IMG/VR virus record: IMGVR_UViG_3300021351_000002 | Span: 1-40,632 of that record | Source of the DNA: a virus | Direction: 5' to 3' (one strand) | Length of the DNA stretch: 40,632 nucleotides | In this document: positions 1 to 40,632 of the stretch, in pieces | Layout: each line of letters begins with the position of its first letter | How positions within the stretch are numbered: the stretch's first letter is position 1 | The notes under the pieces: model-generated | Database searches by the model: none | Told to the model about the DNA's origin: nothing | The model's input: the letters and a program-made list of their open reading frames with translations, nothing else | Position numbers and translations under genes: made by a program

Positions 1-119
1 AACTCGGCCAGGGCCTGGTGCATCTCGCCATACACCCAGCACTCCAACTCAGCACCGAGCTCGACGCATTCGAGGCAAGTCCTGAAGGTCTCGAATCCGC
101 CATCTACCCAGAGGCCCGA
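1..119. repeat. terminal direct repeat (left copy)
   Basis: These 119 bases are identical to 40514-40632. The overlap is most simply the k-mer overlap of a circular assembly graph, giving a 40,513 bp circle. A short terminal redundancy in the virion cannot be excluded, but 119 is a common assembler k-mer size, and a gene reads straight through the join, which argues for an assembly overlap. Confidence 0.95.
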
Positions 120-236
120 TGTGTACTCGTACCGGTCGCCTGGTGCGATGACGGCCTGGCACTCGACGCACTCGTGAGCCTTGCGCGCGGTGACCATGCG
201 CGTCGTCGCGAAGGTTGGGCCATCGCAGTCGCACAT
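1..236 (-). CDS. small Cys-rich protein, 5' part; continues across the map ends
   Basis: Starts at ATG 236-234, overlapping the stop of the upstream gene (TGATG), and runs off the left edge. Joined across the circle at 40513 it continues to a TGA at 40486, giving a complete 87-residue protein. It has three Cys pairs: MCDC at the N-terminus, then CVEC and CLEC near residues 23-26 and 54-57, suggesting a small zinc-binding protein. It sits in a run of small genes with start-stop overlaps whose next member starts inside its last codons. Function not recognised. Confidence 0.75.
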   Translation of the reverse strand, partial: MCDCDGPTFATTRMVTARKAHECVECQAVIAPGDRYEYTSGLWVDGGFETFRTCLECVELGAELECWVYGEMHQALAE

Positions 237-682
237 CAGAGATCTCCGCGCTCATCGCGCTCGTGCGAGCGCTGTTGCTTCGCCTGGCAGAACATGCACT
301 CCTCTGTGCTATGCGAGCGGAGTGTCTCGCATTCGTGGCGGCGCATCGCGACCCGCAGCGCTCGACCGACTTGGTCCAGCTCGTCGTCTGTGACCATCCC
401 TTTGCCCTTCTCGGTCCACTCCACAGCTCCACCAGGCCAGTATTCGAGTACGAGCGTGCTTGATTCGGCCTCGGCCGTTGCGCCGTTGACGACTGCAGCA
501 CGGATCAGACGACGAATGCCGAACGTGTCCGCGTACAGGCGCGCCGAGTCAATGCCGGTCGGAGCTTCTTTAGCAGTCGCGCAGATGTCCGGCGTGATGG
601 CCGTGTCGATATCGTCGGCGTCATTGCTGGGCTCCCATCTGAACAAGGTGATCTTGATATTCCATGCGGTCATATGCATCAT
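236..682 (-). CDS. unknown protein with C-terminal Cys pair
   Basis: 148 residues. The ATG at 682 overlaps the stop of the upstream DUF5131 fragment as ATGA (682-679), and an AAAGGG ribosome-binding sequence lies upstream, so this start is preferred to an ATG 16 codons earlier. The N-terminal half (MTAWNIKITLFRW onward) reads as a mixed alpha/beta domain. The C-terminus holds ECMFCQ followed by charged residues, a possible half zinc site. It is the third gene of the leftward operon that begins at the 1265 promoter. No family recognised. Confidence 0.7.
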   Translation of the reverse strand: MMHMTAWNIKITLFRWEPSNDADDIDTAITPDICATAKEAPTGIDSARLYADTFGIRRLIRAAVVNGATAEAESSTLVLEYWPGGAVEWTEKGKGMVTDDELDQVGRALRVAMRRHECETLRSHSTEECMFCQAKQQRSHERDERGDL

Positions 683-1065
683 GTCGTTGCCCTTTCGCGG
701 CTGTCTGTGGATGTTGGAAACTCCGCCCACTGCCGACCGTCGAGCAACGGCAGGGACACCTTGCGCACGCGACCCTGGTCGCGCTCAACGAACTGTTTCA
801 GGAAGAATGGCACGCCCAGGCGCTGGCACTGGTCGCGCAGACTTCGATGCCAGTCGAGTTCGGCAGCCCGCGCGCGCTGGCCCGACTCGGAGCCCGCGAT
901 GACCCAGCCCAGCCCAGCCGCAGAGCGTCCGCCCGCAGCCTCGCCGAGGTCGATGGGGCCGAGCAGTGGCTCACACGACAAGAAAGGCCGCGTGCCATAC
1001 ATCTCGGCGAGGTCGAGCACAAGCGGCAAGCGGTACTCGGCCACCTCCTGATTCTCGATCGACAC
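679..1065 (-). pseudogene. Gp37/Gp68-like (DUF5131) C-terminal fragment
   Basis: About 128 residues match the C-terminal part of the phage Gp37/Gp68 radical-SAM family: a VSIENQ motif, then FLSCEPLLGPIDL, WVIAGSESG, LRDQC..GVPFFLKQ and SLPLLDGRQW. The N-terminal two thirds of that family, including the CxxxCxxC cluster that binds iron-sulfur, are absent. The only start in this frame is a GTG at 1065 without a clear ribosome-binding site; stops lie upstream in frame. The family match begins at LGVS, just where the open frame from the 1265 promoter stops looking like protein, one base out of frame. The stop is still coupled to the next gene (ATGA), so this end may be translated. It is a decayed or chimeric gene, or there is an indel. 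Confidence 0.65.
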
Positions 1066-1265
1066 GCCGAGAGTGTCCGCATGGCTTCTTCGATCTGCTG
1101 GATCGCCTTGGATGCGTCGCCAGACTGAACGGCAGTGAGGGCTGCGCGAAGCTCGTCGAGTGCCAAATCAGCCGCCGAGTCGAGCTGCGCAACACGACGT
1201 TCGAGCTCGGTCTCCTTGCACGGGGAAGCCGACCATCCGATGACGCTATGCGTGTTGTTTGCCAT
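798..1265 (-). CDS. leaderless ORF with coiled coil; frame conflicts with DUF5131 remnant
   Basis: Starts at ATG 1265, six bases after a strong -10. Residues 1-66 look like real protein: MANNTHSVIGW, then a charged helical stretch (about 17-65) with coiled-coil spacing. The opening resembles the first strand of Gp37/Gp68 proteins (xIxWT). After about position 1071 the frame turns Arg/Ser/Cys-rich and runs to 798 antisense to nothing recognisable, while the -1 frame becomes a good DUF5131 C-terminus. A -1 shift at about 1070 would give a protein of about 195 residues. No classical slippery heptamer is visible there, so a mutation or assembly indel is as likely as recoding. Confidence 0.45.
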   Translation of the reverse strand: MANNTHSVIGWSASPCKETELERRVAQLDSAADLALDELRAALTAVQSGDASKAIQQIEEAMRTLSACRSRIRRWPSTACRLCSTSPRCMARGLSCRVSHCSAPSTSARLRADALRLGWAGSSRAPSRASARGLPNSTGIEVCATSASAWACHSS

Positions 1266-1271
1266 GCACCA

Positions 1272-1300
1272 TACATAGCCGAGTGGCGACACCGTGTCAA
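1272..1300 (-). promoter_or_regulatory. promoter of leftward small-gene operon (leaderless)
   Basis: On the minus strand: TTGACA (1300-1295), 17 bp spacer, TATGTA (1277-1272), then 6 bases to the ATG at 1265. There is no room for a ribosome-binding site, so the mRNA should start at or next to the AUG. The -35 lies in a TTGGTGTTGAC block shared with the 37476 promoter. Confidence 0.75.
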
Positions 1301-1332: not shown

Positions 1333-1947
1333 TCAAGGGCGGGCGGTCGCCAACGCGTGAGCGAGCCGCGCAGGGTATGCGCGGTGAAACTCTCGCGGCA
1401 GGACCTCGTGCACCAGGCGCTCGAAGTCCCAGCGTCGCGCGACCGGCTGCGAGGGCTGTAGCGCCCAGCGAAGTTGGAGCTTGCGCCGTCGCCCGCGACC
1501 GCGCCGGATGAGCAGCCGCTCGCCCTTGCCAGCGTGTCGCCGAAACGGAGCGGGCAGGCGGGCGTCGTTCTCGACGAAGAAGTGGCGCTCGTCGCGCAGG
1601 GCGCCGGGCCAGTTGCGCCTGGTGACCACGCGCTTTGGATTCGGTCGAGCCGCGCGCGTGGGTATGGCCGTGCTCGTGCGCTGGCCGCCGAGGACGTGAT
1701 CCTCGTACATGGCGCGCGTCGTGCCCACCGTGACCTCGGGCCGTGAGCGCGTCGCTCTCTCGACCCTGATGCCGCCCGTGGACCACTGGCGCCGGACTTG
1801 GAAGGTGTCCTTGATGTCGTCTTTGATTGCCCCTCGCGTGGCAAACGCGCTATCGTTTGCAGCACCAATCGCAGCAAATCCCACCTGTTTGTTGAATGAT
1901 TTGGCGACCTTGCGAGGAGATATCAGCTTGTTTTTTATGGTAACCAT
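1333..1947 (-). CDS. predicted minor virion (tail/neck) protein
   Basis: 204 residues, strongly basic. The start is the ATG inside the CCATGG at 1944-1949. The order of features resembles a family of phage minor structural proteins: an N-terminal helical part (residues 7-35, with AIGAANDSAFATRGAIKDDI), an FQVRRQWSTGGIRV strand pair, and a C-terminal RRWDFERLVHEVLPREFHRAY helix. I recall this pattern from Mu-like and related head-tail proteins, but cannot confirm it by search. It is alone on its strand here, head-to-head with the rightward accessory module, rather than inside the late operon. No clear promoter or ribosome-binding site was found. Confidence 0.6.
   Translation of the reverse strand: MVTIKNKLISPRKVAKSFNKQVGFAAIGAANDSAFATRGAIKDDIKDTFQVRRQWSTGGIRVERATRSRPEVTVGTTRAMYEDHVLGGQRTSTAIPTRAARPNPKRVVTRRNWPGALRDERHFFVENDARLPAPFRRHAGKGERLLIRRGRGRRRKLQLRWALQPSQPVARRWDFERLVHEVLPREFHRAYPARLAHALATARP
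1910..1938 (+). promoter_or_regulatory. promoter of rightward module (leaderless)
   Basis: TTGCGA at 1910-1915, 17 bp spacer, TTTTAT at 1933-1938, then 7 bases to ATG 1946. It lies inside the opposite-strand gene that starts at 1947. Same geometry as the other first-gene promoters. Confidence 0.55.
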
Positions 1948-3839: not shown

Positions 3840-3868
3840 TTGACCGCGCTCACGAGTGCTGGCACACT
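3840..3868 (+). promoter_or_regulatory. promoter upstream of 3875 gene (leaderless)
   Basis: TTGACC at 3840-3845, spacer of 17, CACACT at 3863-3868, then 6 bases to ATG 3875. It decides the start of the downstream gene over a GTG at 3821. Confidence 0.6.
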
Positions 3869-3874
3869 TTGCGC

Positions 3875-6544: not shown

Positions 6545-7741
6545 CTACAGGAACGTGATGGTCGGCGCCGGCTCTATCAGCTGGCCGTGGAGCGCTACCA
6601 GGTCGGCGCTGGGGCCCGGGTTGATCACGTTATCCTCGGTTGCCTCGTGGCCCGCTGTAACGCTGGGCTGGATGTCGTTGACCGTGACACTCGTGATGCT
6701 CGTCAGCCCACTGATAGCCGCGATCAGTTCGGAGTTGGCGATCGAATAGCCACTCGCGCCCCGGCCCGTGGCCACTCGCTGGCGAAGCGCCCGCCCAGCG
6801 GCAGCTTGTGTATCTGCCGTGTTCGGCACGATCGTGAGCGTGCACTCTGCCCATGGCACAGCCATGATCCGCACCTTGACGTTGTCCCCTACGCCGCGCA
6901 CAGTCAGCACGTTCAGCGCCGATTCCCATGCATCGACTTGGCCCTGAGTTGGCAGGTTGATCGTCCATGGCGCGTCCTGGGCCTCGAGCGCTGTGAGCAC
7001 GAGCAGCGGGTACAGGACGACAGTGCCGGACCCGAGCCCAGCTGGATCGACGAACACCTCGCCGATGGCGGCGTCGAGGTTGCGCAATTGCTCGATGTAG
7101 TACGCAGCGAGCCGGCAGCCGCTGCGTGCGGCAAAGGCACCGCGCACGCGTTCGCTCGTCTGCTCATCGTTGACCGGGTCCGCGCCCGCAACAAGCAGAG
7201 CCGTGACTGGTGCGATCGTGTCGACGTCGTCCGAGATGTCGTCGATCCCGATGTCGTCGCCAACCGACAGGTTGTAGTCGCTGCCCGCGGCCTCAGCTGT
7301 GACATTGACCTCGATCGTGGACTCAGGCGCCCCGAACACAAGCGGCGCATCGGTGGTGTATCGCTTGCCCGTGGCAATGCCGGCGACGAACGATCCGGCC
7401 GGCAAGGTGTAGTTGTTCCGGGCCGTCACCGCGATCGTGAGCTGCGCGGTCGCGGGAACCGGCGCGATGACGCCCATCAGTTCGGCCCATTGTTGCAAGG
7501 GCGCTCCAGTCGCGCCGCCTGGGAACGCCTGGGTGGCAGACTCGCGAGCGAGGCCCATCAAGAACAGGTCGCGCCGCGCCAGTATCTGCCCGAGCGGATA
7601 AAGCAGGTTGTCATTGGTGAACGCCGACAGCGTCCTGCCGGAGCGCGTCACGACGCCGCTGTATGCAGCGGTCAACCCACGCTTCACCGTGGTCAGGACC
7701 TCACTGAGAGTCGGAATCGTGATCGGTAGCAGTGCGGGCAT
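6545..7741 (-). CDS. baseplate J-like protein (Mu gp47)
   Basis: 398 residues with the typical features of baseplate J proteins: N-terminal PTLSEVLTTVKRGL, the long segment with NNYTLPAGSFVAGIATGKRYTT, a GSDYNLSVGDDIGID strand, and the terminal YSIANSELIAAISGLTSI region. It forms the wedge that links the central hub to the outer baseplate. It starts one base after the gp46-like stop, in the same order as in phage Mu. Confidence 0.88.
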   Translation of the reverse strand: MPALLPITIPTLSEVLTTVKRGLTAAYSGVVTRSGRTLSAFTNDNLLYPLGQILARRDLFLMGLARESATQAFPGGATGAPLQQWAELMGVIAPVPATAQLTIAVTARNNYTLPAGSFVAGIATGKRYTTDAPLVFGAPESTIEVNVTAEAAGSDYNLSVGDDIGIDDISDDVDTIAPVTALLVAGADPVNDEQTSERVRGAFAARSGCRLAAYYIEQLRNLDAAIGEVFVDPAGLGSGTVVLYPLLVLTALEAQDAPWTINLPTQGQVDAWESALNVLTVRGVGDNVKVRIMAVPWAECTLTIVPNTADTQAAAGRALRQRVATGRGASGYSIANSELIAAISGLTSITSVTVNDIQPSVTAGHEATEDNVINPGPSADLVALHGQLIEPAPTITFL

Positions 7742-9847: not shown

Positions 9848-10810
9848 TCACAGTCGCGCTGTGCGCCCGACTGACCAGCTGAAGATGGCGTCGCGGTTCT
9901 TGCGTGCCAGCGTGTCGAAGTCGCCCGGCAAGGCTTGCAGGCGCGCCAGCGGTCGCGTGGCCGTCGAGCCGAATGCTGCGGATCCGAGTTGGCCGAGATA
10001 GAGCTGCCAGGACTCCAACTGGTTCAGGATAACGGGCGAGTCGTGCCGAGTTGCGGCAAGCTGTACGCGCTCGATGATGGCGTCGCGAGCGCCCGGCGAG
10101 AGTTCGCCAGACTCGGCGGCGCGGGCCCCGGAACCAAGCGCCTGGATAGCCCCGGGGATATCGCCGCCCGCCTGGACGTTGCCATCGGTGAGGAGCTTCT
10201 CGCTGACCGTCGCCGTGTAGTCTCCACCCTGAACAAACTCCGGCACGCGCAGGGTCGGGCGCAAGGTCGAGAGCTGAGCCGACGCCGCTGGCTCGCTGGC
10301 AAAGTCAAAGCCAATCAACGACAGCTCCTCGGCGAGGTCGGCCGCGGTCGCGGCAATGACGCCGGTCCCGGTCGGCTCCGGCGGCAATGAAGTCGTCCAG
10401 AACACCGCCCGGAACGTGTGTGTCTCCAACTCGCTGTGCACCCCGGAGAAGCTCCACGACTCCGGGACGACGTCCAGTGGGCCGAACCATGGATGAATGA
10501 GCAGGCCCGTGCGGCGCGCCGTGTGGAACAGGCGCAGGCGCGCGCTCAGCTCTTCGACGCGCGACACGGCGCGGAGTTGGCCGTCGAGCGGGATGCCGTC
10601 ATCGTGCGGTGTGAGGTATCCCTCGAGCGCGTGGCGCTCACGGCCAGCCACAACGAAGCGTGTCGAGGTCGCGCGACCGAGCAGCACATCCTCGACCGTT
10701 GCGTTCTGCCCGTCGCGCGTATACCGCGCCACAGAGAACGGCAGCCCCGCGAAGCTGGCGGGATAGCGCGTTGCCCGCGCGCGCTGTTGGTAGTCGTCTG
10801 GGCTGATCAT
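9848..10810 (-). CDS. Mu gp43-like tail/DNA-circularisation family protein
   Basis: 320 residues, ATG in a four-base overlap with the tape-measure gene. The first 120 residues fit the 'DNA circularisation N-terminal' domain typical of proteins encoded right after the tape measure: RYPASFAGLPFSVARYTRDG, EGYLTPHDDG and RLFHTARRTGLLIHPWFGPLDV. Despite the name, the family is a tail-tip component in Mu-like phages. The C-terminal half is helical and not conserved. Confidence 0.75.
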   Translation of the reverse strand: MISPDDYQQRARATRYPASFAGLPFSVARYTRDGQNATVEDVLLGRATSTRFVVAGRERHALEGYLTPHDDGIPLDGQLRAVSRVEELSARLRLFHTARRTGLLIHPWFGPLDVVPESWSFSGVHSELETHTFRAVFWTTSLPPEPTGTGVIAATAADLAEELSLIGFDFASEPAASAQLSTLRPTLRVPEFVQGGDYTATVSEKLLTDGNVQAGGDIPGAIQALGSGARAAESGELSPGARDAIIERVQLAATRHDSPVILNQLESWQLYLGQLGSAAFGSTATRPLARLQALPGDFDTLARKNRDAIFSWSVGRTARL

Positions 10811-12549
10811 CGCTTGCCGCCGTCGAGCGATGGTGCTCGATTCTGCGCGCGCTCGAAAGCGTTCTGGTTGAGTTCGCGGATCGTGGCTGGATCGAGCCGC
10901 ACCTCGCGGATCTGGGCAAGCAGCTCAGGCGTGAACGTCTCGCCTCCGCCGATGCTGCGTTGCTCGACCAGCCTGTCGATGGCGCCTGTCAATCCAGTCA
11001 TCGCGTTCGAGATCTGAGCCTCGCGCGCGATCTCCTGGACCGCGGTCACAGGCGCGAAAATCCCTGGCTCCGCGGGGGCGGCCGGACCGATGACAGCTTG
11101 CTGCTCGAGTGCCTGCGCGACCTGCTCACGGGTGACGACGCCGGTCTCTGCGGCTCCCAACACCGCGAGTTCCTGGGCCAGCGCTATCCCCTCGCTCCGC
11201 TGTTTGGCGAGCAGCTCGTTGATTTCTTCGAGCTGGTTTTTGAGCCCGTCGATCTCTCGCCGCGTGGCCGCGTACTGCTCTTGCCACTTACGCGTTCCGA
11301 TGATTGCATCCTCGATATCGAATACAGCTTCGCCGATGGCTGTACCTACGCCGACAAACCCATCGGCCAGCCATCCCGCGGCTTGCACCGCGCCCGTGAG
11401 CAGGGAGACGAACGTCTCGATGCGCTCTGGGGTCATCGCTTCGCTGAGCGAGAGCTTGGCCTCGTTCATCGCCTGTGCGATCCGGAACCCTTGCGTCGCG
11501 GTCTTCTTGCCGAAGTCTTCCGAGATGTCGGTCGCGTTGGCCGCCGCATCAGCCAGTCGCTCGAATTCGGCGCGCGCGGCGGGGTCTTGCAGTGTGCGGA
11601 AGAACTTGACGGCCTCCTTGCGCCCGAGAATGTCCTGCAGCTGCTTGATGTTCAACCGCTTGTCGGCGATCTGGTCGAGGATATCGCGCAGCCCGCGCAG
11701 TCTCTTCTCGGGGCCCTTGCCGGTGAATACTTCGATTCCGACCTTCTTGAATTCATCGCTCTTCTGCACAAGTGATGAAATTCCAGCCTCGAGCACGGTG
11801 CCGGCAGCGGCGGCTGATCCGGTTGACTTGCGCAATACCTGCAGCGCAGACGACAGGTCCGCCGCTGATTGCACGCCGCCCACGCCCACCTCCTTGAAGG
11901 TGCTGGAGACATCCTGCAGCACGCTCGCCATCTCCGAGAGCGGTATCTTGCCCTCCTTGCCGGCGCGCACGAATGCGCTGAGCGCTTTCTCCATGCCGTC
12001 GACGTCGGTGACCGCAATGCCCATGGAGTCGCTGACCGCGGAAACAAGACCGCCGAGGTCTGCCACTTCGGCGCCCGTTGCCACCGCCGTTCGCGCGAGC
12101 AGGTCGAGCAAGCGGGCATCCTCGATAGCTGCCGGGCCGAGCAGGTTGGTCAGGGTCTCGGCGGCACTGGCCAGCTCGACTTTGCTGAGCGCCGTCTTGC
12201 GCGAGGTCGCGGTGAGCGACTTCTCGAACAGCGCCATTTTCTCGGCGGATGCGCCAGCCTGAATCTGGACGCCGCCGAGAATGCGCTGGAATGCGAGCGT
12301 ATCTTTTGCACCGGCTGCGGCTGCGGCTGCTACGCCGCCCGCGACACCGAAGCCACCGCGGCGGATGGCCTGGCCGCGTTCCTTGCTCCGCCGCTCGCGC
12401 TCACGGTCGCGCTTCTTTTCCAGCCTCTCGATCCGCGCCAGACTCTTCTTGTTCTCGCCCTCGAGCTGGGCAAAGGAGCGTGTGATCTGGGCCTCGGCTT
12501 CGGCGGTTGAAACCCTCAGCTTGCCGAAGACCGAGAAGCCAGCGGCCAT
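10807..12549 (-). CDS. tail tape measure protein
   Basis: 580 residues. Coiled coil at 20-65 rich in Lys, Arg and Glu, a Gly/Ala membrane-like segment at 67-85 (GVAGGVAAAAAAGAKDTL), then the typical tape-measure core with repeated 'AAETLTNLLG' helices, a Trp/Gly hydrophobic region around 400-425, and a helical tail. It sets tail length and is ejected with DNA; about 580 residues predicts a tail of some 85-90 nm by the usual rule. It begins 5 bases after the lipoprotein gene stop and overlaps the gp43-like gene. Confidence 0.85.
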   Translation of the reverse strand: MAAGFSVFGKLRVSTAEAEAQITRSFAQLEGENKKSLARIERLEKKRDRERERRSKERGQAIRRGGFGVAGGVAAAAAAGAKDTLAFQRILGGVQIQAGASAEKMALFEKSLTATSRKTALSKVELASAAETLTNLLGPAAIEDARLLDLLARTAVATGAEVADLGGLVSAVSDSMGIAVTDVDGMEKALSAFVRAGKEGKIPLSEMASVLQDVSSTFKEVGVGGVQSAADLSSALQVLRKSTGSAAAAGTVLEAGISSLVQKSDEFKKVGIEVFTGKGPEKRLRGLRDILDQIADKRLNIKQLQDILGRKEAVKFFRTLQDPAARAEFERLADAAANATDISEDFGKKTATQGFRIAQAMNEAKLSLSEAMTPERIETFVSLLTGAVQAAGWLADGFVGVGTAIGEAVFDIEDAIIGTRKWQEQYAATRREIDGLKNQLEEINELLAKQRSEGIALAQELAVLGAAETGVVTREQVAQALEQQAVIGPAAPAEPGIFAPVTAVQEIAREAQISNAMTGLTGAIDRLVEQRSIGGGETFTPELLAQIREVRLDPATIRELNQNAFERAQNRAPSLDGGKR

Positions 12550-13558: not shown

Positions 13559-13564
13559 GGCGCG

Positions 13565-13593
13565 ACTGTGTCAGGTCGCGCGCGCGGTGTCAT
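13565..13593 (-). promoter_or_regulatory. promoter of internal lipoprotein gene (leaderless)
   Basis: Minus strand: ATGACA (13593-13588), 17 bp spacer, CACAGT (13570-13565), 6 bases, ATG 13558. The -35 overlaps the end of the tube gene. Weak -10, but the geometry matches the other promoters. Confidence 0.5.
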
Positions 13594-21295: not shown

Positions 21296-21301
21296 CTTTC
21301 G

Positions 21302-21838: not shown

Positions 21839-21856
21839 GCCCGATGATAGCACGCA

Positions 21857-23824: not shown

Positions 23825-23830
23825 CAGGAG

Positions 23831-23840: not shown

Positions 23841-23870
23841 TTGCTCCTGACTGCCGCGGTCGTCTATGCT
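23841..23870 (+). promoter_or_regulatory. promoter of 23880 gene
   Basis: TTGCTC at 23841-23846, 18 bp spacer, TATGCT at 23865-23870, 9 bases to ATG 23880. It overlaps the late-operon promoter region head to head. Confidence 0.5.
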
Positions 23871-23879
23871 CTGCGGATC

Positions 23880-24278: not shown

Positions 24279-24317
24279 TGCGACAATACGCCGCATCGGA
24301 GCGGCTCCATGGCGTGC

Positions 24318-24323
24318 TATTCT
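24318..24323 (+). promoter_or_regulatory. -10 element of 24331 gene
   Basis: TATTCT preceded by TGC, 7 bases before ATG 24331. No good -35. Confidence 0.5.
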
Positions 24324-24330
24324 CGGCACC

Positions 24331-24807: not shown

Positions 24808-24879
24808 CGCCCGCGCGGCATCGTATACGTGCAAGCGCCACCAGAGTGGGCCAAGTACGACGAACGCGCCCGCCCGTGA

Positions 24880-24885
24880 TAATGT
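24880..24885 (+). promoter_or_regulatory. -10 element of lipoprotein gene
   Basis: TAATGT, 7 bases before ATG 24893 (alternative register GATAAT). No clear -35. Confidence 0.45.
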
Positions 24886-24892
24886 CTCGGCA

Positions 24893-25399
24893 ATGAGACA
24901 GACATCCCTCCTCGCGATATCCCTACTCGCACTCGGCGCATGCGGCCAGTGCGGGACCAAGACACTGCCCGTCGTTCAGCACTACGCTGGCGACTACGCG
25001 ATCGCCTTCACCGGCTCGGGCGCGACCCACGGCAAGGTGAGCGCGCGCGGCGCCTACTTCGATGGCACCACGTCCGTAAGCGTGGCCCTGGAATACAAGG
25101 GCGTGCCGCTGCGCACGCTCGAGGTCGAGCCCGGGGTAGCGCGGTTCTTCGCTCTTGCCGTGGGTCCATCAAGCGTGCGCTGGATCGCGCTCTCGTGCGA
25201 GGCTGCCCACGGCGCGGGCATCTTTCCCGAGGTTGCCTGCGAGACGGCGAAGGCCGCACCGGCCGGCCACAAGGTGCTCGTCGAGGTGGACAGGGAAACG
25301 GGCACGGTGAAAGCGAATGACGGCGAATGTCCGGTCGACGAGAACGGGACCAAGTGCTGCCCCGACGTCGTCACCGGCGGCGCTGTTTGCCCTGGCTGA
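24893..25399 (+). CDS. secreted lipoprotein
   Basis: 168 residues. Signal peptide and lipobox (LLALGAC, Cys17 the lipidated residue). Mature part has several Cys (CGQCG at the start; later CEAAHG, VACETA, GECPVDENGTKCCP), suggesting disulfides in the periplasm. Beta-rich domain with DYAIAFTGSGATHGKVS. Starts at the ATG with a -10 seven bases upstream. Phage-encoded lipoproteins often block receptors or DNA entry of competing phages. The target here is unknown. Confidence 0.65.
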   Translation: MRQTSLLAISLLALGACGQCGTKTLPVVQHYAGDYAIAFTGSGATHGKVSARGAYFDGTTSVSVALEYKGVPLRTLEVEPGVARFFALAVGPSSVRWIALSCEAAHGAGIFPEVACETAKAAPAGHKVLVEVDRETGTVKANDGECPVDENGTKCCPDVVTGGAVCPG

Positions 25400-26095: not shown

Positions 26096-26102
26096 GTCTG
26101 GC

Positions 26103-26131
26103 ACAATACAACCGCATACGATACCGCGCAA
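26103..26131 (-). promoter_or_regulatory. promoter of 26095 gene (leaderless)
   Basis: Minus strand: TTGCGC (26131-26126), 17 bp, TATTGT (26108-26103), 7 bases, ATG 26095. Confidence 0.65.
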
Positions 26132-26151: not shown

Positions 26152-26180
26152 TTGATTTCGGCGCATGCGCGGTGCATGAT
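26152..26180 (+). promoter_or_regulatory. promoter of 26187 gene (leaderless)
   Basis: TTGATT at 26152-26157, 17 bp, CATGAT at 26175-26180, 6 bases, ATG 26187. Back-to-back with the 26095 promoter. Confidence 0.55.
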
Positions 26181-26186
26181 CGGCCG

Positions 26187-31498: not shown

Positions 31499-31655
31499 CC
31501 ATCGGGTTGATTCCGAGCGCCGCGGCAAGCGCGCGAATGGCTTGCTGCTCCATGTTGGCCCGGAGCTCGGCAATCTTGTTGCCCGAGCGGCGAGCGGCGC
31601 GGCGGCTCTGTCCAGCGAGGGCGGCGGCGGCGTATAGGTCTTTGGCGGTGTCCAT
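31488..31655 (-). CDS. 55-residue leaderless protein
   Basis: Starts at ATG 31655, seven bases after the -10 of an operator-controlled promoter. Helical and Ala/Arg-rich with MDTAKDLYAAAALAGQ and ELRANMEQQAIRALAAALG. Resembles a small DNA-binding or regulator peptide. The copy of this promoter upstream (32183) drives a different gene, so the regulatory block, not the protein, was duplicated. Confidence 0.6.
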   Translation of the reverse strand: MDTAKDLYAAAALAGQSRRAARRSGNKIAELRANMEQQAIRALAAALGINPMDGR

Positions 31656-31662
31656 GGATCTG

Positions 31663-31692
31663 ACACTAGCCGACTGCGCCGTGATTAGTCAA
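31663..31692 (-). promoter_or_regulatory. operator-controlled promoter of 31655 gene
   Basis: Minus strand: TTGACT (31692-31687), 18 bp spacer, TAGTGT (31668-31663), 7 bases, ATG 31655. The -35 lies inside the inverted-repeat operator. Confidence 0.75.
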
Positions 31693-31705
31693 GTGGAGAA
31701 ATCAC
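31681..31705. promoter_or_regulatory. inverted-repeat operator, copy 1
   Basis: GTGATT, 13 bases, AATCAC. It covers the -35 box of the promoter in front of ATG 31655, so a dimer bound here would block RNA polymerase. Same site at 32209-32233 with one changed base. Confidence 0.75.
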
Positions 31706-31721
31706 AAGCCGTGTCGATTTC

Positions 31722-32183
31722 TTAGTCTGCCAAGGCGCAGTCCATCCGGTGCCCGTGGCTGTAGCCGCACTCGTCACAGCTGCGCGTCGTCGCCGCCGTA
31801 GCCGTCGTGTAGCCGTAGCAGTGGGGGCCAGCGGGCCGCTCGAACGCGCGGCCAACGCCAGCGATCGTCACGGGTGCGCCGCCCACCTCGAGCACTGCGC
31901 CGACTACCACGAGGCCAACGGGACCGACCACGACGCGGCGGCCGCGCTTCGTGGTGGTCCAGGATAGGCTCGGAGACGATGACACGGATGCGCCAGGCTC
32001 CGACACTGCGACAGCCTGCAGGTTCGGCGTATCGCAGCGCTTGGAGTGCCGGATCGCCGATCCGGCATACGCCCACATGTTGCAGTCGTCGCAACGCACC
32101 GCGCCTGCGCTGGCTGCGAACTCACGAAGGCCATCGGTCAGGGCGAAGGTTCCGTCGTCGGTGGTGATGGTTTTCGGTTCCAT
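31722..32183 (-). CDS. two-zinc-site protein under operator control
   Basis: 153 residues, ATG 32183, leaderless. Cys pairs near the N-terminus (VRCDDCNMWAYAG, then RHSKRCDTP) and near the C-terminus (TRSCDECGYSHGHRMDC) flank a hydrophobic beta middle (VVVGPVGLVVVGAVLEVGG). The arrangement suggests two zinc knuckles around a small barrel. Function not recognised. It shares its operator with the 31655 gene. Confidence 0.65.
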   Translation of the reverse strand: MEPKTITTDDGTFALTDGLREFAASAGAVRCDDCNMWAYAGSAIRHSKRCDTPNLQAVAVSEPGASVSSSPSLSWTTTKRGRRVVVGPVGLVVVGAVLEVGGAPVTIAGVGRAFERPAGPHCYGYTTATAATTRSCDECGYSHGHRMDCALAD

Positions 32184-32190
32184 GGCTCCG

Positions 32191-32220
32191 ACACTAGCCG
32201 ATACTGTCGTGATTAATCAA
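32191..32220 (-). promoter_or_regulatory. operator-controlled promoter of 32183 gene
   Basis: Minus strand: TTGATT (32220-32215), 18 bp, TAGTGT (32196-32191), 7 bases, ATG 32183. Confidence 0.75.
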
Positions 32221-32233
32221 GTGGAGAAATCAC
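32209..32233. promoter_or_regulatory. inverted-repeat operator, copy 2
   Basis: GTGATT, 13 bases, AATCAC over the -35 of the 32183 promoter. Differs from copy 1 by one base in the spacer. Confidence 0.75.
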
Positions 32234-32249
32234 CAACCGCGTCGATTTC

Positions 32250-32453
32250 TCACGGCGTGCGCACTGGTAGCCATTCGCCAGCGAGCAGTCCGCGCAGCGC
32301 CTGCGCGGGCGACTGGCCGAGCTCATCGCCGAACACCCGCTCGGCAGCGGCGTACTCGGCCGCGCTCATTGTGAACGAGTGGGGGCGCCGCTTGACCTTG
32401 CCTGGTGGTCGGCCTGCGCCTGGGCGTCGTCCGCCTTTGTTGTCTGGTGGCAT
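32250..32453 (-). CDS. small DNA-binding-like protein
   Basis: 67 residues from ATG 32453, six bases after a TATAAG -10. N-terminus is Gly/Pro/Arg/Lys-rich (GGRRPGAGRPPGKVKRRPH), typical of tails that bind DNA, followed by a helix with MSAAEYAAAERVFGDE. Such 'GRRPGAGRPP' starts are common in small phage regulators. Target unknown. Confidence 0.6.
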   Translation of the reverse strand: MPPDNKGGRRPGAGRPPGKVKRRPHSFTMSAAEYAAAERVFGDELGQSPAQALRGLLAGEWLPVRTP

Positions 32454-32459
32454 GCTCTG

Positions 32460-32489
32460 CTTATACCGCTCGGCGACGTGATTGCGCAA
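32460..32489 (-). promoter_or_regulatory. promoter of 32453 gene (leaderless)
   Basis: Minus strand: TTGCGC (32489-32484), 18 bp, TATAAG (32465-32460), 6 bases, ATG 32453. It lies partly in the gap after the cytosine methyltransferase gene. Confidence 0.7.
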
Positions 32490-32498
32490 GTTGGGGAA

Positions 32499-33329
32499 TC
32501 ATGCGGCATGCATCAGCCGGCCGTAGAGAACGCGGAACGCCAGCGCATGAACAGCGGGGACCTGTCCGTTCCCCAGGGCTGCGCCTCGGTCCATGAGGTC
32601 GGCCACCCCATGAGCCACTCGACATATTGCGGGTTCGCTTTTCCACCAAGCATTTCCCCGAGGCTCGGTCCGCCCTGCGCGTTGCGTCCTCTGACGCTCT
32701 TTCCGCGTCGCGCGTCGCTCGCTGTCGGCGTCGGCACTCGTCGTACATATGCGGTGATCGACTCGCCGCCCTGCTGATACTTCCCGTTCCGGCCCGTCGT
32801 CATCCCTGACACCGTCGGGGTCGGCACATGCTCGATGGCGCGCAAGGATCCACATGCGGTGGCGATGATGCGGTGCACCCACGTCGCACGCTCCGAGACA
32901 GTCCCACTCCGCATCGTACCCGAGTACGGCAAGATCTCCGAGGACTCGGCCAAGCCCGCGAGTAGCGAGATTTGGCGAGTTTTCCACGTACACGAACCGT
33001 GGTCGAACCTCATCGACCACGCGGGCAAACTCTCGCCAGAGCCCAGACTTGGGGCCGTGCTCGACGCCGCCCCCGCGCCCTGGTGCCGCGATGTCCTGGC
33101 ATGGGAAGCCGCCAGATACGAGATCCACAAGTCCACGCCAGGGGCGCCCGTCGAAGGTCTGGACGTCGTCCCAGATCGGAAACGGTGGCAAGAGTCCGTC
33201 GAGCTGTCGCTGCATGAGCACGCGTCGGCAAAAGGGGTCGATCTCGACGGCGCAGACGGTTCGGTGTCCGAGCAAGAGTCCGCCAAGTATCCCGCCGCCA
33301 GCTCCGGCGAATAACTCCAGGACATTCAC
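32499..33329 (-). CDS. DNA cytosine-C5 methyltransferase
   Basis: 276 residues from GTG 33329 (GGGGG upstream; an ATG at 33359 would overlap the previous gene by 20 bases). C5-methyltransferase motifs in order: I (NVLELFAGAGGGILGG), IV with catalytic Cys77 (GGFPCQDIA), VI (ENSPN at 116-120), VIII (APHHRHRMWILA), X (GNGQVPAVHALAF). The target-recognition part, Arg-rich, is between VIII and X and short. It is probably used to evade host restriction; no cognate endonuclease is seen. Confidence 0.88.
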   Translation of the reverse strand: MNVLELFAGAGGGILGGLLLGHRTVCAVEIDPFCRRVLMQRQLDGLLPPFPIWDDVQTFDGRPWRGLVDLVSGGFPCQDIAAPGRGGGVEHGPKSGLWREFARVVDEVRPRFVYVENSPNLATRGLGRVLGDLAVLGYDAEWDCLGACDVGAPHHRHRMWILARHRACADPDGVRDDDGPEREVSAGRRVDHRICTTSADADSERRATRKERQRTQRAGRTEPRGNAWWKSEPAICRVAHGVADLMDRGAALGNGQVPAVHALAFRVLYGRLMHAA

Positions 33330-33339
33330 TTCGCCCCCA

Positions 33340-33750
33340 TCACACGTCACCCGCCACATAGCGCTCGACCACGCGCGGCCGAGGCGGCGGCGTCGGGAGC
33401 GCGATAGAGTAGAAGCTGCCGTGCTTGGTCCGCGGCGCCAAGCGCCCGGCGGCTTTCAGGGCGGCGCGGATCACAACCATACTCGGCTCGGTTCCTGTGC
33501 GCGCACGGCACTCGGCCTTGATCGCGGCCTGTACCTTGGCCGCGGGATGGTTGGCGATGCGGGGTCCGTCGGCCAGCCATTCCGCGATCACGGTATCGAC
33601 GACGGTCTCGCCCGTGGCGGCGAGCAGCTCGAGCGCAAGCCAACGCGCCCGCTCGCGGCCCAGGAAGCCGTGCAGCTCCACAGCATAGTCGCGCGCGTCG
33701 CGCGCGTCGAACGCGGCGAGAAACGCCAGGTGCAGCTGTATTGCCGCCAT
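33340..33750 (-). CDS. winged-helix-like unknown protein
   Basis: 136 residues, ATG 33750 (TGATG overlap; a GTG precedes it by one codon). Helical first half, then IKAECRARTGTEPSMVVIRAALKAAGRLAPR, which resembles a small DNA-binding helix-turn-helix, and a Pro-rich C-terminus. It lies between the coiled-coil protein and the C5 methyltransferase. Function unknown. Confidence 0.55.
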   Translation of the reverse strand: MAAIQLHLAFLAAFDARDARDYAVELHGFLGRERARWLALELLAATGETVVDTVIAEWLADGPRIANHPAAKVQAAIKAECRARTGTEPSMVVIRAALKAAGRLAPRTKHGSFYSIALPTPPPRPRVVERYVAGDV

Positions 33751-35330: not shown

Positions 35331-35337
35331 AACCGGC

Positions 35338-35366
35338 ACCATATCAGCACTATTCGGCGATGTCTA
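35338..35366 (-). promoter_or_regulatory. early-operon promoter (leaderless)
   Basis: Minus strand: TAGACA (35366-35361), 17 bp, TATGGT preceded by TGA (extended -10; 35343-35338), 7 bases, ATG 35330. The -35 sits in GGTGTAGAC, similar to GGTGTTGAC at the 1265 and 37476 promoters. Confidence 0.7.
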
Positions 35367-35730
35367 CACCGATGGTACACCGCAAACCTCATGATGCGCG
35401 CCGTGTAGAAAGCTGGCCAAATGGCCGAATTTCGACCACCTCCGGGCGGACCCCACCCTAGCCGTCGCCACCCTGTAAGTACTGAGTGGCACGACGTCGC
35501 AGATCGCCAGCTACACGTCGAGCGGAGCCACCGCGGCGCGCCTGTTTGCCAGCCTGTTGCAGGTCCGGAAAAACTCGTTCGGCGGCTGCGGTCTCAGCTC
35601 TCGTGTAGTCCAGCTCGGACCCTCGCAGGTTTTCCCCGGTCGGTCAGTGCCAGAGCGCCTCACGCGAAGGGTCCGGTTCGACGGTACTCCTGAGCGTTGC
35701 GCGCCGTTGGGTGGCACTGGGCTGACTAGG

Positions 35731-35779
35731 GCAGATTCGCGGGTGGGTGGGGTAGGCCCCCCGGCCTTCGCCAATCTGC
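35731..35779. repeat. inverted repeat (GCAGATT / AATCTGC)
   Basis: GCAGATT at 35731-35737 and AATCTGC at 35773-35779 enclose a G- and C-run segment (GGGGTAGGCCCC core) able to fold internally. Function unknown. Confidence 0.5.
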
Positions 35780-35805
35780 GAGGGGTGGCTTGATCCGACT
35801 CACAC

Positions 35806-35834
35806 CGAACAATCCAGGATTCTTGGATAGTTCG
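35806..35834. repeat. 29-bp inverted repeat, 11-7-11
   Basis: CGAACAATCCA (35806-35816), 7 bases, TGGATAGTTCG (35824-35834). Arms pair at 10 of 11 positions (one A-A). Arm and spacer lengths match core sites of tyrosine recombinases, or an operator. No T-run follows, so a terminator is unlikely. Confidence 0.65.
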
Positions 35835-35893
35835 CGCCCGAGCCCCCGGGTAGCCTTGCCGTTCTCCTGCTCGTGAGCTCATCGGTCCCCACA

Positions 35894-35910
35894 CGTGGAT
35901 TCGAACCACG
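35894..35910 (-). other. isolated tRNA T-arm (possible tRNA 3' end in attP)
   Basis: On the minus strand, CGTGG, loop TTCGAAT, CCACG: a perfect 5-bp stem and consensus T-loop. Followed by TGTGGGGA, plausible as the 3' acceptor strand and discriminator base. The matching 5' acceptor, D-arm and anticodon arm are absent at the right distance, so it is not a whole tRNA gene. Confidence 0.5.
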
Positions 35911-35915
35911 ATTCC

Positions 35916-35956
35916 GCATGCAGTAGCGAGCGGTCCCGTGGGACTTCTCTGCATGC
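35916..35956. repeat. inverted repeat (GCATGCAG / CTGCATGC)
   Basis: Eight-base arms at 35916-35923 and 35949-35956, with an inner GTCC/GGAC hairpin. Directly next to the T-arm. Confidence 0.55.
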
Positions 35957-36248
35957 GTGCACACCTCGTCAACGGTTGTCGCTGGGTCCAGCGAGCCGCT
36001 GACTGCGATGGGGAGCGATCAACCCACGAACCAAGGGCGGCCCCATGGTCTGCGTGGGATCTCCGCTTCAATCGCGGACGTATATCCGGCGCCGTCGCGG
36101 TCGCCGTACTATCTCGCGCTGCGCTCCACCTCGCTGTGCGCCCGGCGCCCGCTGCGCCGGTGACCATCCGCTGGGATGTCACACTGGATATGTAGGGTGG
36201 TTTCATCATCGAGACATGGCAAGCCTAGACAACTTGCCCGCCGAAATC

Positions 36249-36272
36249 AAGCCCCCGGATCCCTGGGGGCTT
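36249..36272. terminator. terminator-like hairpin
   Basis: AAGCCCCC (36249-36256), 8-base loop, GGGGGCTT (36265-36272), followed on the plus strand by CGGTCGTTT. An eight-bp GC-rich stem in a gene-free gap, symmetric enough to work on either strand. On the minus strand it would stop read-through from the 37476 gene before the early region. Confidence 0.55.
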
Positions 36273-36330
36273 CGGTCGTTTCGGGAACTTGCCACCGCGC
36301 GCAGGTTAGAGCGCCCGCCCGGGACTATTC

Positions 36331-36360
36331 TTGACAGCGCCGCGCCGCCCGCGGGACTGT
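36331..36360 (+). promoter_or_regulatory. endolysin promoter (leaderless)
   Basis: TTGACA at 36331-36336, 18 bp, GACTGT at 36355-36360, 6 bases, ATG 36367. Consensus -35, poor -10. Confidence 0.55.
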
Positions 36361-36366
36361 GCCGCC

Positions 36367-36957
36367 ATGGCCATCGACTGGAACAAAGCGCAAGAGTACA
36401 ACGCCACGACGACCAGCCTACCGCCCGAGCAGCTCGTGGCGCTGATCGCCGAGACACAGCGGAACCTGAACGTCACCCAGGACGGGATGTTTGGTCCGCA
36501 GACGCGGCTGGCACTGGCACGCGAGTGGGCAGAGACCGAGGAGCGTACGCTCGAGCAGATGATCGCCGCCGCCATCGCGCAGACGGGCAAGCCGTACATC
36601 TTCGGCGCCGAAGTGAGGTTGGACGACCCGAGTCCGCCGGCGTTCGACTGCTCCGAGCTCGTACAGTGGACGTGCGCGCAGGCTCGGCTGAGGATGCCAG
36701 ACGGCACATGGAACCAGGTCACGCACTGCCGCGACGTCGGCACGCTGATCGATGTGTCGACCGCGATCTGGACGCGTGGCGCGCTGCTCTTCAAGTTCGG
36801 CGGCGACCCGTTCCAGGGCTCGCGCCCGTCGAGCGCTCACGTTGCGATATCGCTCGGCAACGGCACCACCATCGAGGCCAGGTCGGCCAAGTATCCGGTC
36901 GGCTCGTTCAGTGCAGAGGGTCGCGGCTGGACCCACGCGGGCCTCATTCCGGCGTAA
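36367..36957 (+). CDS. NlpC/P60-like endolysin
   Basis: 196 residues. N-terminal peptidoglycan-binding-like segment (about 17-52: LPPEQLVALIAETQRNLNVT then DGMFGPQTRLAL), then a NlpC/P60 peptidase: catalytic Cys95 in PAFDCSELVQW and His158 in SSAHVAISLG, with a polar residue about 12 later. No signal peptide, so it should need a holin. It should cleave peptide cross-links of peptidoglycan at lysis. Starts at ATG six bases after the -10. A virion-borne hydrolase is possible. Confidence 0.8.
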   Translation: MAIDWNKAQEYNATTTSLPPEQLVALIAETQRNLNVTQDGMFGPQTRLALAREWAETEERTLEQMIAAAIAQTGKPYIFGAEVRLDDPSPPAFDCSELVQWTCAQARLRMPDGTWNQVTHCRDVGTLIDVSTAIWTRGALLFKFGGDPFQGSRPSSAHVAISLGNGTTIEARSAKYPVGSFSAEGRGWTHAGLIPA

Positions 36958-37476: not shown

Positions 37477-37482
37477 GCATGC

Positions 37483-37512
37483 GGTATATCGCGCATGTCG
37501 GCACCAGGTCAA
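37483..37512 (-). promoter_or_regulatory. promoter of 37476 gene (leaderless)
   Basis: Minus strand: TTGACC (37512-37507), 18 bp, TATACC (37488-37483), 6 bases, ATG 37476. Within TTGGTGTTGAC, shared with the 1265 promoter. Confidence 0.7.
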
Positions 37513-37896: not shown

Positions 37897-38309
37897 CGCG
37901 CCCGCCAATCCGCCCCGGCCCGGGTGAGATTGCAGCGCCGCCCGTGGCCGCAGATCTCGCATGTGCGCTCGGCGAGATCGCGCCATAGCCCGACAACTGG
38001 GACCGAGACCACGGTCCTGTCCGCGTGGGCTGTGAGCGCGCACCAGACGGCGTACACGAGCCGCCTTGTCTCGGCGTGCGCTTCCATGGCCTCGCGTTCG
38101 ATGGCGTCCATGCGGCGGCTGTGACGGTCACGCGCAAGCATCACACCCACCTCGAGCCCGGTGACTCTCGCAGCGAGCTGGCGCGTGACCGCGGTGTCAT
38201 CGGTTGGCGCCGGCCTCGCGCGGACTCGACCGCAGGCCAACAAAGTGCACTCGCTCACCAGGGTGGCGATAAGCGCCACCCACAGGAGCCAGGGCGCGGC
38301 GCGCGTCAC
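37893..38309 (-). CDS. membrane-anchored protein with Cys-rich tail
   Basis: 138 residues from GTG 38309 (GTGA overlap). Transmembrane helix at 6-25 (PWLLWVALIATLVSECTLLA), helical middle (residues 50-95, with charged heptads) and CEICGHGRRC near the end, a possible zinc site. Ends in an ATGA overlap with the 45-residue gene; together they may be a membrane pair. Holin/antiholin or spanin-like function is possible only by context. Confidence 0.6.
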   Translation of the reverse strand: MTRAAPWLLWVALIATLVSECTLLACGRVRARPAPTDDTAVTRQLAARVTGLEVGVMLARDRHSRRMDAIEREAMEAHAETRRLVYAVWCALTAHADRTVVSVPVVGLWRDLAERTCEICGHGRRCNLTRAGADWRAR

Positions 38310-39862
38310 GGTGTCACCGGGCGCAACACCACCATGTCCTCGCAAGGCATCACGCGGAAGACATAGCCACCCTTGGTGTCGATCTGGAGCATGTTGCCGT
38401 TGACCGCGGCGATCGCCGTCACGGCACGTGTGATGTCCGAGTCTTGGAGCGTGTCAACGACGTCGCCGACCCTCACACTGTCTGCGCGCACGACCCTGCG
38501 GCCGTCGCCGCGTTCCATTGCCCACAGGACGCTGCGCCATCGCCGCAGCTCCCCCGGTGACAGGCTCGCGGCGTACTCTTCCGCGGCCCGGAACTGCTCT
38601 TCTGGCATGTCGGTCTTGCCACGGTGATCGCACGGCACCCTCGTGGCCCTCGCGCTGCCGGCCACGCGCATCATGAAAAATCCGTTGTCCTCGCACTGCT
38701 GGCAGGTCGGCGATGTGTCCTCTTTGCTCGTATCGGTCTCGTCGATACGCTCACCGGTATCTGGATCGCGGCCATGGCGTCGGCACAGATCCTGCGCGCG
38801 GCCCGAGCCTATGGCGAAGATCGACTTGACCCCCGCCCACGCCGGAGCGCTGTTTTTGCATGCCTTGTTGACCGCGCGCTCGACAAGGTCTGCGAGGTCA
38901 TCGGTGCGCGCCAGCTCGTCTCTATCCACCTCGCCGATACGCGATACCGCCTGGCTTGCCTGCTCATGCCATTGCTCGTCGTCCAGCTCTTCGCCGAGAA
39001 AGACAGCGACGACCTCTGCCAGCAAGTCCAGCGCCTCCCCGTGCTGAACTTTCAAGCGGCTGAGCAGCGCCAGGCACTCTGAGCGCTGCTGCATGTACAC
39101 GTCGTCGATACACGGCAAAGCCGTGGGCTCGAGACGCGCCCGCGCCCTGTCCAGCAACGGCCCGAGTTCGTCGAGCGTGACCGGCTTGCCCCAGACGTAG
39201 CCATCGCTCCGCACCTTGATTTCGCCGGAACCGAGCAACGAAACGAACGCCCTGTGCTCGTCGCCCCAGGTACAGCTGCAAGCCGTCGTGAGCATGGTCC
39301 ACGGCAGCCCGCGCACTCGCACCATGTCGTCGATGGCCACGGCAGCATCGACCTCTCGCGTATCGCCCTCGTCGATACGCGGCTCCGGCGCCATGGCATC
39401 GTTTGGCCGAATGGCGTCGAATGCATCCGGTAGCGCGCGCAGGAAGTCCGCCACCTTCTGCTGATCGTCTGGCGCCAGCTTCTCAATACCCCGGACAGCC
39501 CGCGCCCGACCATCGCTCCGGCCAGCGAGCCACTCCGCACCCACGTCATACAGGTCGGCCAGCTTGCGCAGCTCATAGGGCGTGGGCCGGACTCGACCAG
39601 CCTCGAGGGCGACGATCCAGCCCACGCCACTCACGTCCAGCTGTCGGGTAGCCTGCGCGCACGTCAGCCCTGCGCGCTCGCGGGCGATCTGGTACCGGTT
39701 GGGCTTTGCGGGTTTTGGCGACATCGCGGCGACTTGCGCGCGGGCCAACGCGAGCACAGCGGTAAGTGCGGTGATATCGTTGTCCGATAGGTCGCGCTCG
39801 TCGGGGTCGGCGATCATCAGCTCGACGCGGGCAAGCACGTCCTCGATCGATTCGGTGGTCAT
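38306..39862 (-). CDS. 518-residue multidomain XRE protein
   Basis: ATG 39862 in an ATGA overlap. N-terminus: charged helix (1-45), then a XRE helix-turn-helix at about 56-114 (NRYQIARERAGLTCAQATRQ, ending LYDVGAEWLAG). Middle: acidic linker, a beta segment with TWGDEHRAFVSLLGSGEIKV (199-218), and a helical region with CKNSAPAWAGVKSIFAIGSG (335-354), a pattern found in phage proteins before RusA-like genes. C-terminus: CQQC (387-390) with C411/H413, a zinc site, then a beta domain. Far longer than normal XRE repressors; it looks like a fusion of regulator and early protein. Possible master regulator. Confidence 0.65.
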   Translation of the reverse strand: MTTESIEDVLARVELMIADPDERDLSDNDITALTAVLALARAQVAAMSPKPAKPNRYQIARERAGLTCAQATRQLDVSGVGWIVALEAGRVRPTPYELRKLADLYDVGAEWLAGRSDGRARAVRGIEKLAPDDQQKVADFLRALPDAFDAIRPNDAMAPEPRIDEGDTREVDAAVAIDDMVRVRGLPWTMLTTACSCTWGDEHRAFVSLLGSGEIKVRSDGYVWGKPVTLDELGPLLDRARARLEPTALPCIDDVYMQQRSECLALLSRLKVQHGEALDLLAEVVAVFLGEELDDEQWHEQASQAVSRIGEVDRDELARTDDLADLVERAVNKACKNSAPAWAGVKSIFAIGSGRAQDLCRRHGRDPDTGERIDETDTSKEDTSPTCQQCEDNGFFMMRVAGSARATRVPCDHRGKTDMPEEQFRAAEEYAASLSPGELRRWRSVLWAMERGDGRRVVRADSVRVGDVVDTLQDSDITRAVTAIAAVNGNMLQIDTKGGYVFRVMPCEDMVVLRPVTP

Positions 39863-40074
39863 GATGCCCCCGTTGTCGCGGCGGCATGGAATCGGCGCGG
39901 AAACCATCCGCACGACGTGTGCGATGCTTGCTTGCCGAACATCATCACGCACCGGCGAACATGGGCACAGTCGCCGCATGTCGTACCGGTCGGCAGGTCC
40001 ATGCACGTATCGGGTGTGCATGAGTCGTCCGCGCAGCATCCGCCGCGCTTCTTCGCTGTCTCTTGTTTGTCCAT
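39859..40074 (-). CDS. conserved Cys-rich small phage protein
   Basis: 71 residues with eight Cys: GGCCADDSCTPDTCMDLP, then TTCGDCAHVRRCVMMFG and a final SCGWFPRRF. The CTPxTCxxLPxGxxCxDC...FPRRF layout recurs in small phage proteins of unknown role. AAGGA lies seven bases before the ATG. It should bind one or two zinc ions or iron-sulfur. Coupled to the XRE protein by ATGA. Confidence 0.72.
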   Translation of the reverse strand: MDKQETAKKRGGCCADDSCTPDTCMDLPTGTTCGDCAHVRRCVMMFGKQASHTSCGWFPRRFHAAATTGAS

Positions 40075-40094
40075 GAGTCTATCCTTGGTTGTGG

Positions 40095-40310
40095 TCAGTA
40101 TCGTTCGATCTTGAGATCCTCGTGTACGTACGATGTGCTGTCTTCTTCGCCGTCAAGCCAGAATGCCCACCCGCACTTGCCCGGCGCGGACTGGTCGTCA
40201 CCGTCCTCGACTAAATCGAAGCTGCGCTCGGGCTGGCCCTCTGCGCGCAAGAGCTGTCGGATGGCCTGCTCGGCCGCCTGTCGGCTGGGTCGCCGTGTCA
40301 TTGTCGCCAT
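40095..40310 (-). CDS. small unknown protein
   Basis: 71 residues. Helical, basic N-terminus (TRRPSRQAAEQAIRQLL), then acidic with one GWAFWLDGEED strand. AAGGA eight bases before the ATG. Part of the small-gene operon; function unknown. Confidence 0.6.
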   Translation of the reverse strand: MATMTRRPSRQAAEQAIRQLLRAEGQPERSFDLVEDGDDQSAPGKCGWAFWLDGEEDSTSYVHEDLKIERY

Positions 40311-40313
40311 GCT

Positions 40314-40505
40314 TCATCCTTGGGTAAAAAGGTCGAGCTGCCCAGTCGCCGCCTGCGCCGCTTGGTCATATCGCTCGGCGCCTTGCTCAATCGTATACCA
40401 GCCGGGCTCGTCGGGCCTGTCGGGCCAGCTATGACACGACACGATCGTGATGGCTCCGCCGTGCACGCGGTAGCTGCGCCCGGGCTCAAGGCGGCGCGCA
40501 GCCAT
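40314..40505 (-). CDS. small beta-rich protein
   Basis: 63 residues from ATG 40505, starting inside the end of the origin-spanning gene. Sequence with GRSYRVHGGAITIVSCHSWP and YTIEQGAERYDQA reads as a small beta protein; ends LDLFTQG. Continues the chain of overlapping genes. Function unknown. Confidence 0.6.
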   Translation of the reverse strand: MAARRLEPGRSYRVHGGAITIVSCHSWPDRPDEPGWYTIEQGAERYDQAAQAATGQLDLFTQG

Positions 40506-40632
40506 CGTACGCCAACTCGGCCAGGGCCTGGTGCATCTCGCCATACACCCAGCACTCCAACTCAGCACCGAGCTCGACGCATTCGAGGCAAGTCCTGAAG
40601 GTCTCGAATCCGCCATCTACCCAGAGGCCCGA
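40486..40632 (-). CDS. small Cys-rich protein, 3' part (continues from position 236)
   Basis: Right-hand part of the gene that starts at 236. The stop TGA is at 40488-40486. Bases 40514-40632 repeat 1-119. The unique end encodes LAYDGCAPP. The whole protein has 87 residues. Confidence 0.75.
   Translation of the reverse strand, partial: SGLWVDGGFETFRTCLECVELGAELECWVYGEMHQALAELAYDGCAPP
40514..40632. repeat. terminal direct repeat (right copy)
   Basis: Identical to 1-119; marks circular closure of the 40,513-bp map. Confidence 0.95.

Follow-up and report, generated by a model that had tools for sequence, protein, structure and literature searches.

Leaderless genes account for more than 20% of genes in Actinobacteria and Deinococcus-Thermus, and in bacteria a TANNNT motif lying about 12 bp ahead of the start codon marks them (PMC3160421). 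Another estimate puts actinobacteria at about 20-25% leaderless genes and D. deserti at as much as 60% (PMC9031893). In mycobacteria, an ATG or GTG at the 5' end suffices, and mRNAs of this kind are translated with roughly the efficiency of leadered mRNAs (PMC4633059). Among phages, most middle and late mRNAs of the Thermus phage phiYS40 are leaderless (PMC3594737), leaderless promoters (PL1, PR2 and PL2) have been predicted in the Corndog group of cluster O mycobacteriophages (PMC4351075), and leaderless genes have been reported from lambda and P2 (PMC4633059).

The DNA analysed here is the whole of IMG/VR record IMGVR_UViG_3300021351_000002 (40,632 bases, ~65% GC; hereafter the window), from an uncultured, high-GC, contractile-tailed phage. 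Genes recognised in it include:

21857-23824, minus strand: GpA terminase (large subunit)
about 21.2-21.4 kb to 19847, minus strand: lambda-type portal
17616-19850, minus strand: capsid-protease
13996-15453, minus strand: sheath
10807-12549, minus strand: tape measure
6545-7741, minus strand: baseplate J
36367-36957, plus strand: NlpC/P60 lysin
32499-33359, minus strand: C5 DNA methylase
21302-21685, plus strand: XRE/HTH_3 repressor

Comparisons of the terminase, capsid and portal with viral contigs, of the terminase with genome contigs and of the DNA with phages returned no close relative; a distant terminase alignment (80 viral and 80 genome loci, 26-36% identity) served as controls only. 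About 1 kb (35343-36366), flanked by a minus-strand unit on one side and a plus-strand unit on the other, lacks convincing coding potential and may be an origin or attachment region.

An earlier note on this DNA had described a common promoter geometry at twelve starts and a -10 alone at four more. Inspection of the upstream sequence bears this out: the twelve have a -35-like hexamer, in most cases a 17-18 bp spacer, and a -10-like hexamer with an ATG 6-7 bases beyond it, and the four have a TANNNT at 6-7 bases (21302, plus strand, TATGCT; 23824, minus strand, TATACT; 24331, plus strand, TATTCT; 24893, plus strand, TAATGT). In standard promoter geometry the start site lies about 7 bases past the -10, which here is the A of the ATG. 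With 21838 and 23880 added, the sites, named by start-codon position, are:

1266-1300, minus strand: 1265 promoter, family B, TTGACA-17-TATGTA-6-ATG; opens the left-most minus-strand run
1910-1945, plus strand: 1946 promoter, TTGCGA-17-TTTTAT-7-ATG; 94-aa protein
3840-3874, plus strand: 3875 promoter, weak, TTGACC-17-CACACT-6-ATG; internal to a plus-strand run
13559-13570, minus strand: 13558 site, the weakest, CACAGT-6-ATG (PWM 8.1)
21290-21301, plus strand: 21302 promoter, extended -10 TGCTATGCT-6-ATG; XRE repressor, on the opposite strand to the head operon
21839-21852, minus strand: 21838 promoter, extended -10 TGCTATCAT-5-ATG; 66-aa gene between terminase and portal
23825-23836, minus strand: 23824 promoter, TATACT-6-ATG; terminase large subunit, opens the structural operon
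23865-23879, plus strand: 23880 promoter, TATGCT-9-ATG; divergent from the terminase, near-leaderless
24315-24330, plus strand: 24331 promoter, extended -10 TGCTATTCT-7-ATG
24877-24892, plus strand: 24893 promoter, TGATAATGT-7-ATG; lipoprotein gene
26096-26131, minus strand: 26095 promoter, TTGCGC-17-TATTGT-7-ATG
26152-26186, plus strand: 26187 promoter, TTGATT-17-CATGAT-6-ATG; divergent from 26095
31656-31722, minus strand: 31655 promoter, family A cassette, TTGACT-18-TAGTGT-7-ATG
32184-32250, minus strand: 32183 promoter, family A cassette, TTGATT-18-TAGTGT-7-ATG
32454-32489, minus strand: 32453 promoter, divergent family A member, TTGCGC-18-TATAAG-6-ATG
35331-35366, minus strand: 35330 promoter, TAGACA-17-TATGGT-7-ATG; opens the right-hand minus-strand run
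36331-36366, plus strand: 36367 promoter, TTGACA-18-GACTGT-6-ATG; NlpC/P60 lysin gene
37477-37512, minus strand: 37476 promoter, family B, TTGACC-18-TATACC-6-ATG

The -10 boxes begin 11-13 bases before the start codon, the position of the box in the TA-led genes of Zheng et al. (2011), and all 17 candidates start with ATG in a search that favoured that codon. Eight sites (1265, 32453, 37476, 3875, 13558, 26187, 36367 and 1946) depart from strict TANNNT. The -10 is poor at 13558 (CACAGT), 3875 (CACACT), 1946 (TTTTAT) and 36367, and the first three of these are the weakest sites; 13558 lies inside the tail operon, 31 nt past the previous gene.

To quantify the geometry, every position was scored with a generic sigma-70 weight matrix, built on E. 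coli-type promoter weights from general knowledge and not trained on the window, and ATGs were counted at each distance behind a high-scoring -10. Qualifying ATGs peak at 6 bases (8 matches) and 7 bases (6 matches), with about one per distance elsewhere. These 14 matches compare with 2.1 expected (Poisson P = 4e-8); 300 dinucleotide-Markov simulations averaged 2.3 and never exceeded 8. Unweighted consensus matching pointed the same way, though less strongly, and gave 11 versus 3.3 at a threshold of 8/12 (one simulation also gave 11) and 3 versus 0.3 at 9/12, and TANNNT-N7-ATG alone occurs 10 times versus about 3. Thirteen of the 14 matrix matches are plausible gene starts, namely all 12 named positions and 21302, the sole exception being 13179 on the plus strand; downstream of the 13, coding scores are positive except at 1265. 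Sigma-70-like sites overall show no excess over shuffles in the window, so it is their position relative to the ATG, and not their number, that is non-random.

Several of the promoters fall into families. Those of 31655 and 32183 (family A) form a duplicated 72-bp cassette (31651-31722 and 32179-32250, 85% identical) with -35, -10 and ATG in register, and an inverted repeat recurs over family A -35 elements:

31681-31705: GTGATT-N13-AATCAC, over the -35 of 31655
32209-32233: GTGATT-N13-AATCAC, over the -35 of 32183
32478-32502: GTGATT-N13-AATCAC with one mismatch, over the -35 of 32453

This repeat is probably a shared operator. The upstream blocks of 1265 and 37476 (family B) share GGTGTTGACNYGGTGYCG, and an extended -10, GCGTGCTATNNT, is common to 21302, 21838 and 24331. 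Diverged copies in families A and B have kept the spacing from -10 to ATG; that different promoter families keep 5-7 bases to the ATG argues for selection on this distance. The XRE/HTH_3 gene at 21302-21685 (plus strand) sits between the 66-aa gene that follows the terminase and the portal, on the opposite strand; the gene, which has a leaderless-type promoter to itself, may encode an immunity or moron repressor.

Because the gene map was assembled manually, on the evidence of coding potential and start checks, the counts of runs and of coupled starts partly depend on start choices. It has nine directional gene runs, leaving out the embedded repressor 21302. In eight of them the opening gene has a -10 at 6-9 bases from its ATG (1265, 1946, 23824, 23880, 26095, 26187, 35330 and 36367); the ninth heads to the contig end, and 40310, the first of its genes that can be seen, carries an AAGGA motif. 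The earlier note had presented the sites as transcription-unit starts; eight candidates lie inside directional runs (13558, 3875, 24331, 24893, 31655, 32183, 32453 and 37476) and are internal promoters, not those of the first gene in a run. Two other claims of the earlier note, that the candidates lack a ribosome-binding site and that internal genes use coupled starts or ribosome sites, agree with our counts. A Shine-Dalgarno (SD) motif precedes none of 17 candidates, as described for TA-led genes (Zheng et al., 2011); among the 36 other genes 12 have one, and the share for all ATGs is 11%. A start within 12 nt of an upstream stop is found at none of 18 candidates and at 26 of the 36 other genes, many of them as 4-base overlaps. 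Leaderless unit-openers are clearly set apart from coupled internal genes.

We consider pervasive leaderless initiation to be, with high probability, the best explanation of the window. Host sigma-70/sigma-A polymerase would start at, or within 1-2 bases of, the A of the first ATG; the resulting mRNAs would be leaderless, with 70S ribosomes initiating on the 5'-terminal AUG, and downstream genes would start by coupling or, less often, from SD sites. An alternative is that the -10 boxes are secondary or fortuitous, with true promoters further upstream and leaders that are translated without an SD. Two-thirds of the non-leaderless genes (24/36) also lack an SD, and the absence of a general excess of sigma-70-like sites would fit as well. 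Nonetheless, such an arrangement would account neither for a peak at 6-7 bases that coincides with gene starts nor for duplicated cassettes in which -35, -10 and ATG stay in register, and we regard it as improbable. We put forward only tentatively, and with some reservation, the bolder proposal that early, regulatory and late units are essentially all opened leaderlessly by ordinary sigma-A promoters, with expression by 5'-terminal-AUG 70S initiation and coupling.

The argument depends on the start codons, and N-terminal features support several of them. At 24893 a lipoprotein signal peptide, MRQTSLLAISLLALGACG, begins at the ATG; the gene (24893-25399, plus strand) encodes a predicted phage lipoprotein with an LGAC lipobox, which may act at the surface or in exclusion. 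The XRE protein of 21302 has its HTH domain at residues 15-69 (E = 1.8e-14), with domain onset at residue 11-15; in the 36367 protein NlpC/P60 comes after a weak peptidoglycan-binding match; the terminase Met (23824) aligns with the Met of five annotated relatives; and the 1946 protein has a hydrophobic stretch at its N-terminus. Calls made on coding potential alone picked other in-frame starts for 3875, 26095, 26187, 32453 and 37476, as would be seen if starts had been mis-assigned and the real genes began at downstream codons with normal leaders. The longer ORF at 37476, however, adds only translated promoter, the candidates have no SD, and the N-termini of the lipoprotein, repressor, lysin and terminase fit their ATGs, making general mis-assignment very improbable. 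The least certain gene is 1265: coding potential in its ORF is lost after ~66 codons, at the point where a truncated DUF5131 frame takes over. The C-terminal half of DUF5131 (679-1265, minus strand) follows the short ORF from 1265 in another frame, which looks like a truncation, fusion or frameshift. A reverse ORF at 1333-2298, overlying 1946 on the plus strand, was first called as a gene and then rejected as a probable shadow ORF by composition; it has one weak homologue match (25% over 130 aa).

The earlier note had left a choice between a host with efficient leaderless translation and an initiation mode specific to the phage. The former is favoured and the latter less so, since the promoters are sigma-70-like, no translation-factor gene was recognised among the proteins scanned, and the lysin points to Actinomycetota. 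Most likely the host is a bacterium in which leaderless translation is routine, and the simplest account is that the phage would use its host's normal leaderless route. Manipulation of initiation factors by the phage to the benefit of leaderless mRNA has been proposed for phiYS40, with the rise of IF2 and fall of IF3 reported there (PMC3594737) as a precedent, and would suit the very high coverage in the window; we nevertheless think it unlikely here, because no translation-factor-like gene was recognised among the window proteins scanned and ordinary -35/-10 elements would work unaided in a leaderless-competent host.

As to which bacterium this is, we lean towards Actinomycetota. Of 198 Actinomycetota genomes, 49 contain a match to the lysin (best 55% identity), compared with 4 of 200 genomes of Proteobacteria, the phylum of a Ruegeria locus; among phages, the lysin's best matches are mostly actinophages. 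The terminase and portal, in contrast, resemble proteobacterial phage families more closely (25-36% identity), and few Actinomycetota genomes (6/396) have a GpA-type terminase, so the assignment comes mostly from one gene, the lysin. Homologue comparisons for the HTH protein (38306-40039) and the XRE repressor were uninformative on the host. In the actinobacterial genome G178, a region that has homologues of the lysin and of baseplate J was considered as a possible prophage; this reading was dropped, as the region has no other convincing homologue of the window. There, on contig 4 at about 157-158.4 kb, an NlpC/P60 domain (loci L186 and L191) 51-55% identical to the window lysin lies beside a baseplate-J-like gene; this locus is perhaps a contractile injection system.

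If confirmed, the window would offer a small natural system in which to study leaderless initiation, with a 5'-terminal AUG at nearly every unit-opener, coupled starts behind it and little use of SD sites. A TANNNT 6-7 bases upstream could serve as a start annotation rule for high-GC phages, and the leaderless pattern as a clue to host identity where relatives are missing. Should all units prove leaderless, the organisation would be among the most complete of its kind described for a phage.

The mechanism itself is already known from Actinomycetota and Deinococcus-Thermus, and the window extends a known phenomenon in which its coverage stands out. The suggestion that this is unusual for a phage therefore stands in degree and not in kind, given the precedents of the Corndog group, lambda, P2 and phiYS40. 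In the same full-promoter test, the window was the strongest of 89 when set beside 88 other loci and phages (next best P 0.02), most of which, as ~20 kb Proteobacteria fragments, are weak controls. Giles has a weaker peak at the same distance, which in the full-promoter test is about one-third as strong as that of the window (5 versus 1.6 at 6-7 bases, P 0.026; 13 versus 3.9 with the -10 only, P 2e-4), and phiYS40 also has a 6-7 base peak (P 0.003-0.03); phiC31, TM4, lambda, P2, P23-45 and Cantare have none. Coverage was the first 50 kb for TM4, P23-45, phiYS40 and Giles, and 45 kb for Cantare.

Like the window, phiYS40 has most transcripts of a whole temporal class without leaders, but it is low-GC, its leaderless class is middle and late only and is linked to changed IF2/IF3, and its signal is weaker. 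For Corndog, compared by description, the leaderless arrangement is given for three out of at least eight promoters predicted, as against nearly all unit-openers in the window. Lambda cI and P2 also provide leaderless phage mRNA, and the repressor-type gene of the window (21302, XRE) has the geometry too, but those are isolated genes in E. coli phages with no genome-wide peak. The leaderless genes of Actinomycetota and Deinococcus-Thermus, like those of the window, combine TANNNT about 12 bp upstream, no SD and an ATG or GTG start; here, by contrast, the pattern belongs to a phage genome and takes in nearly all of its unit-openers.
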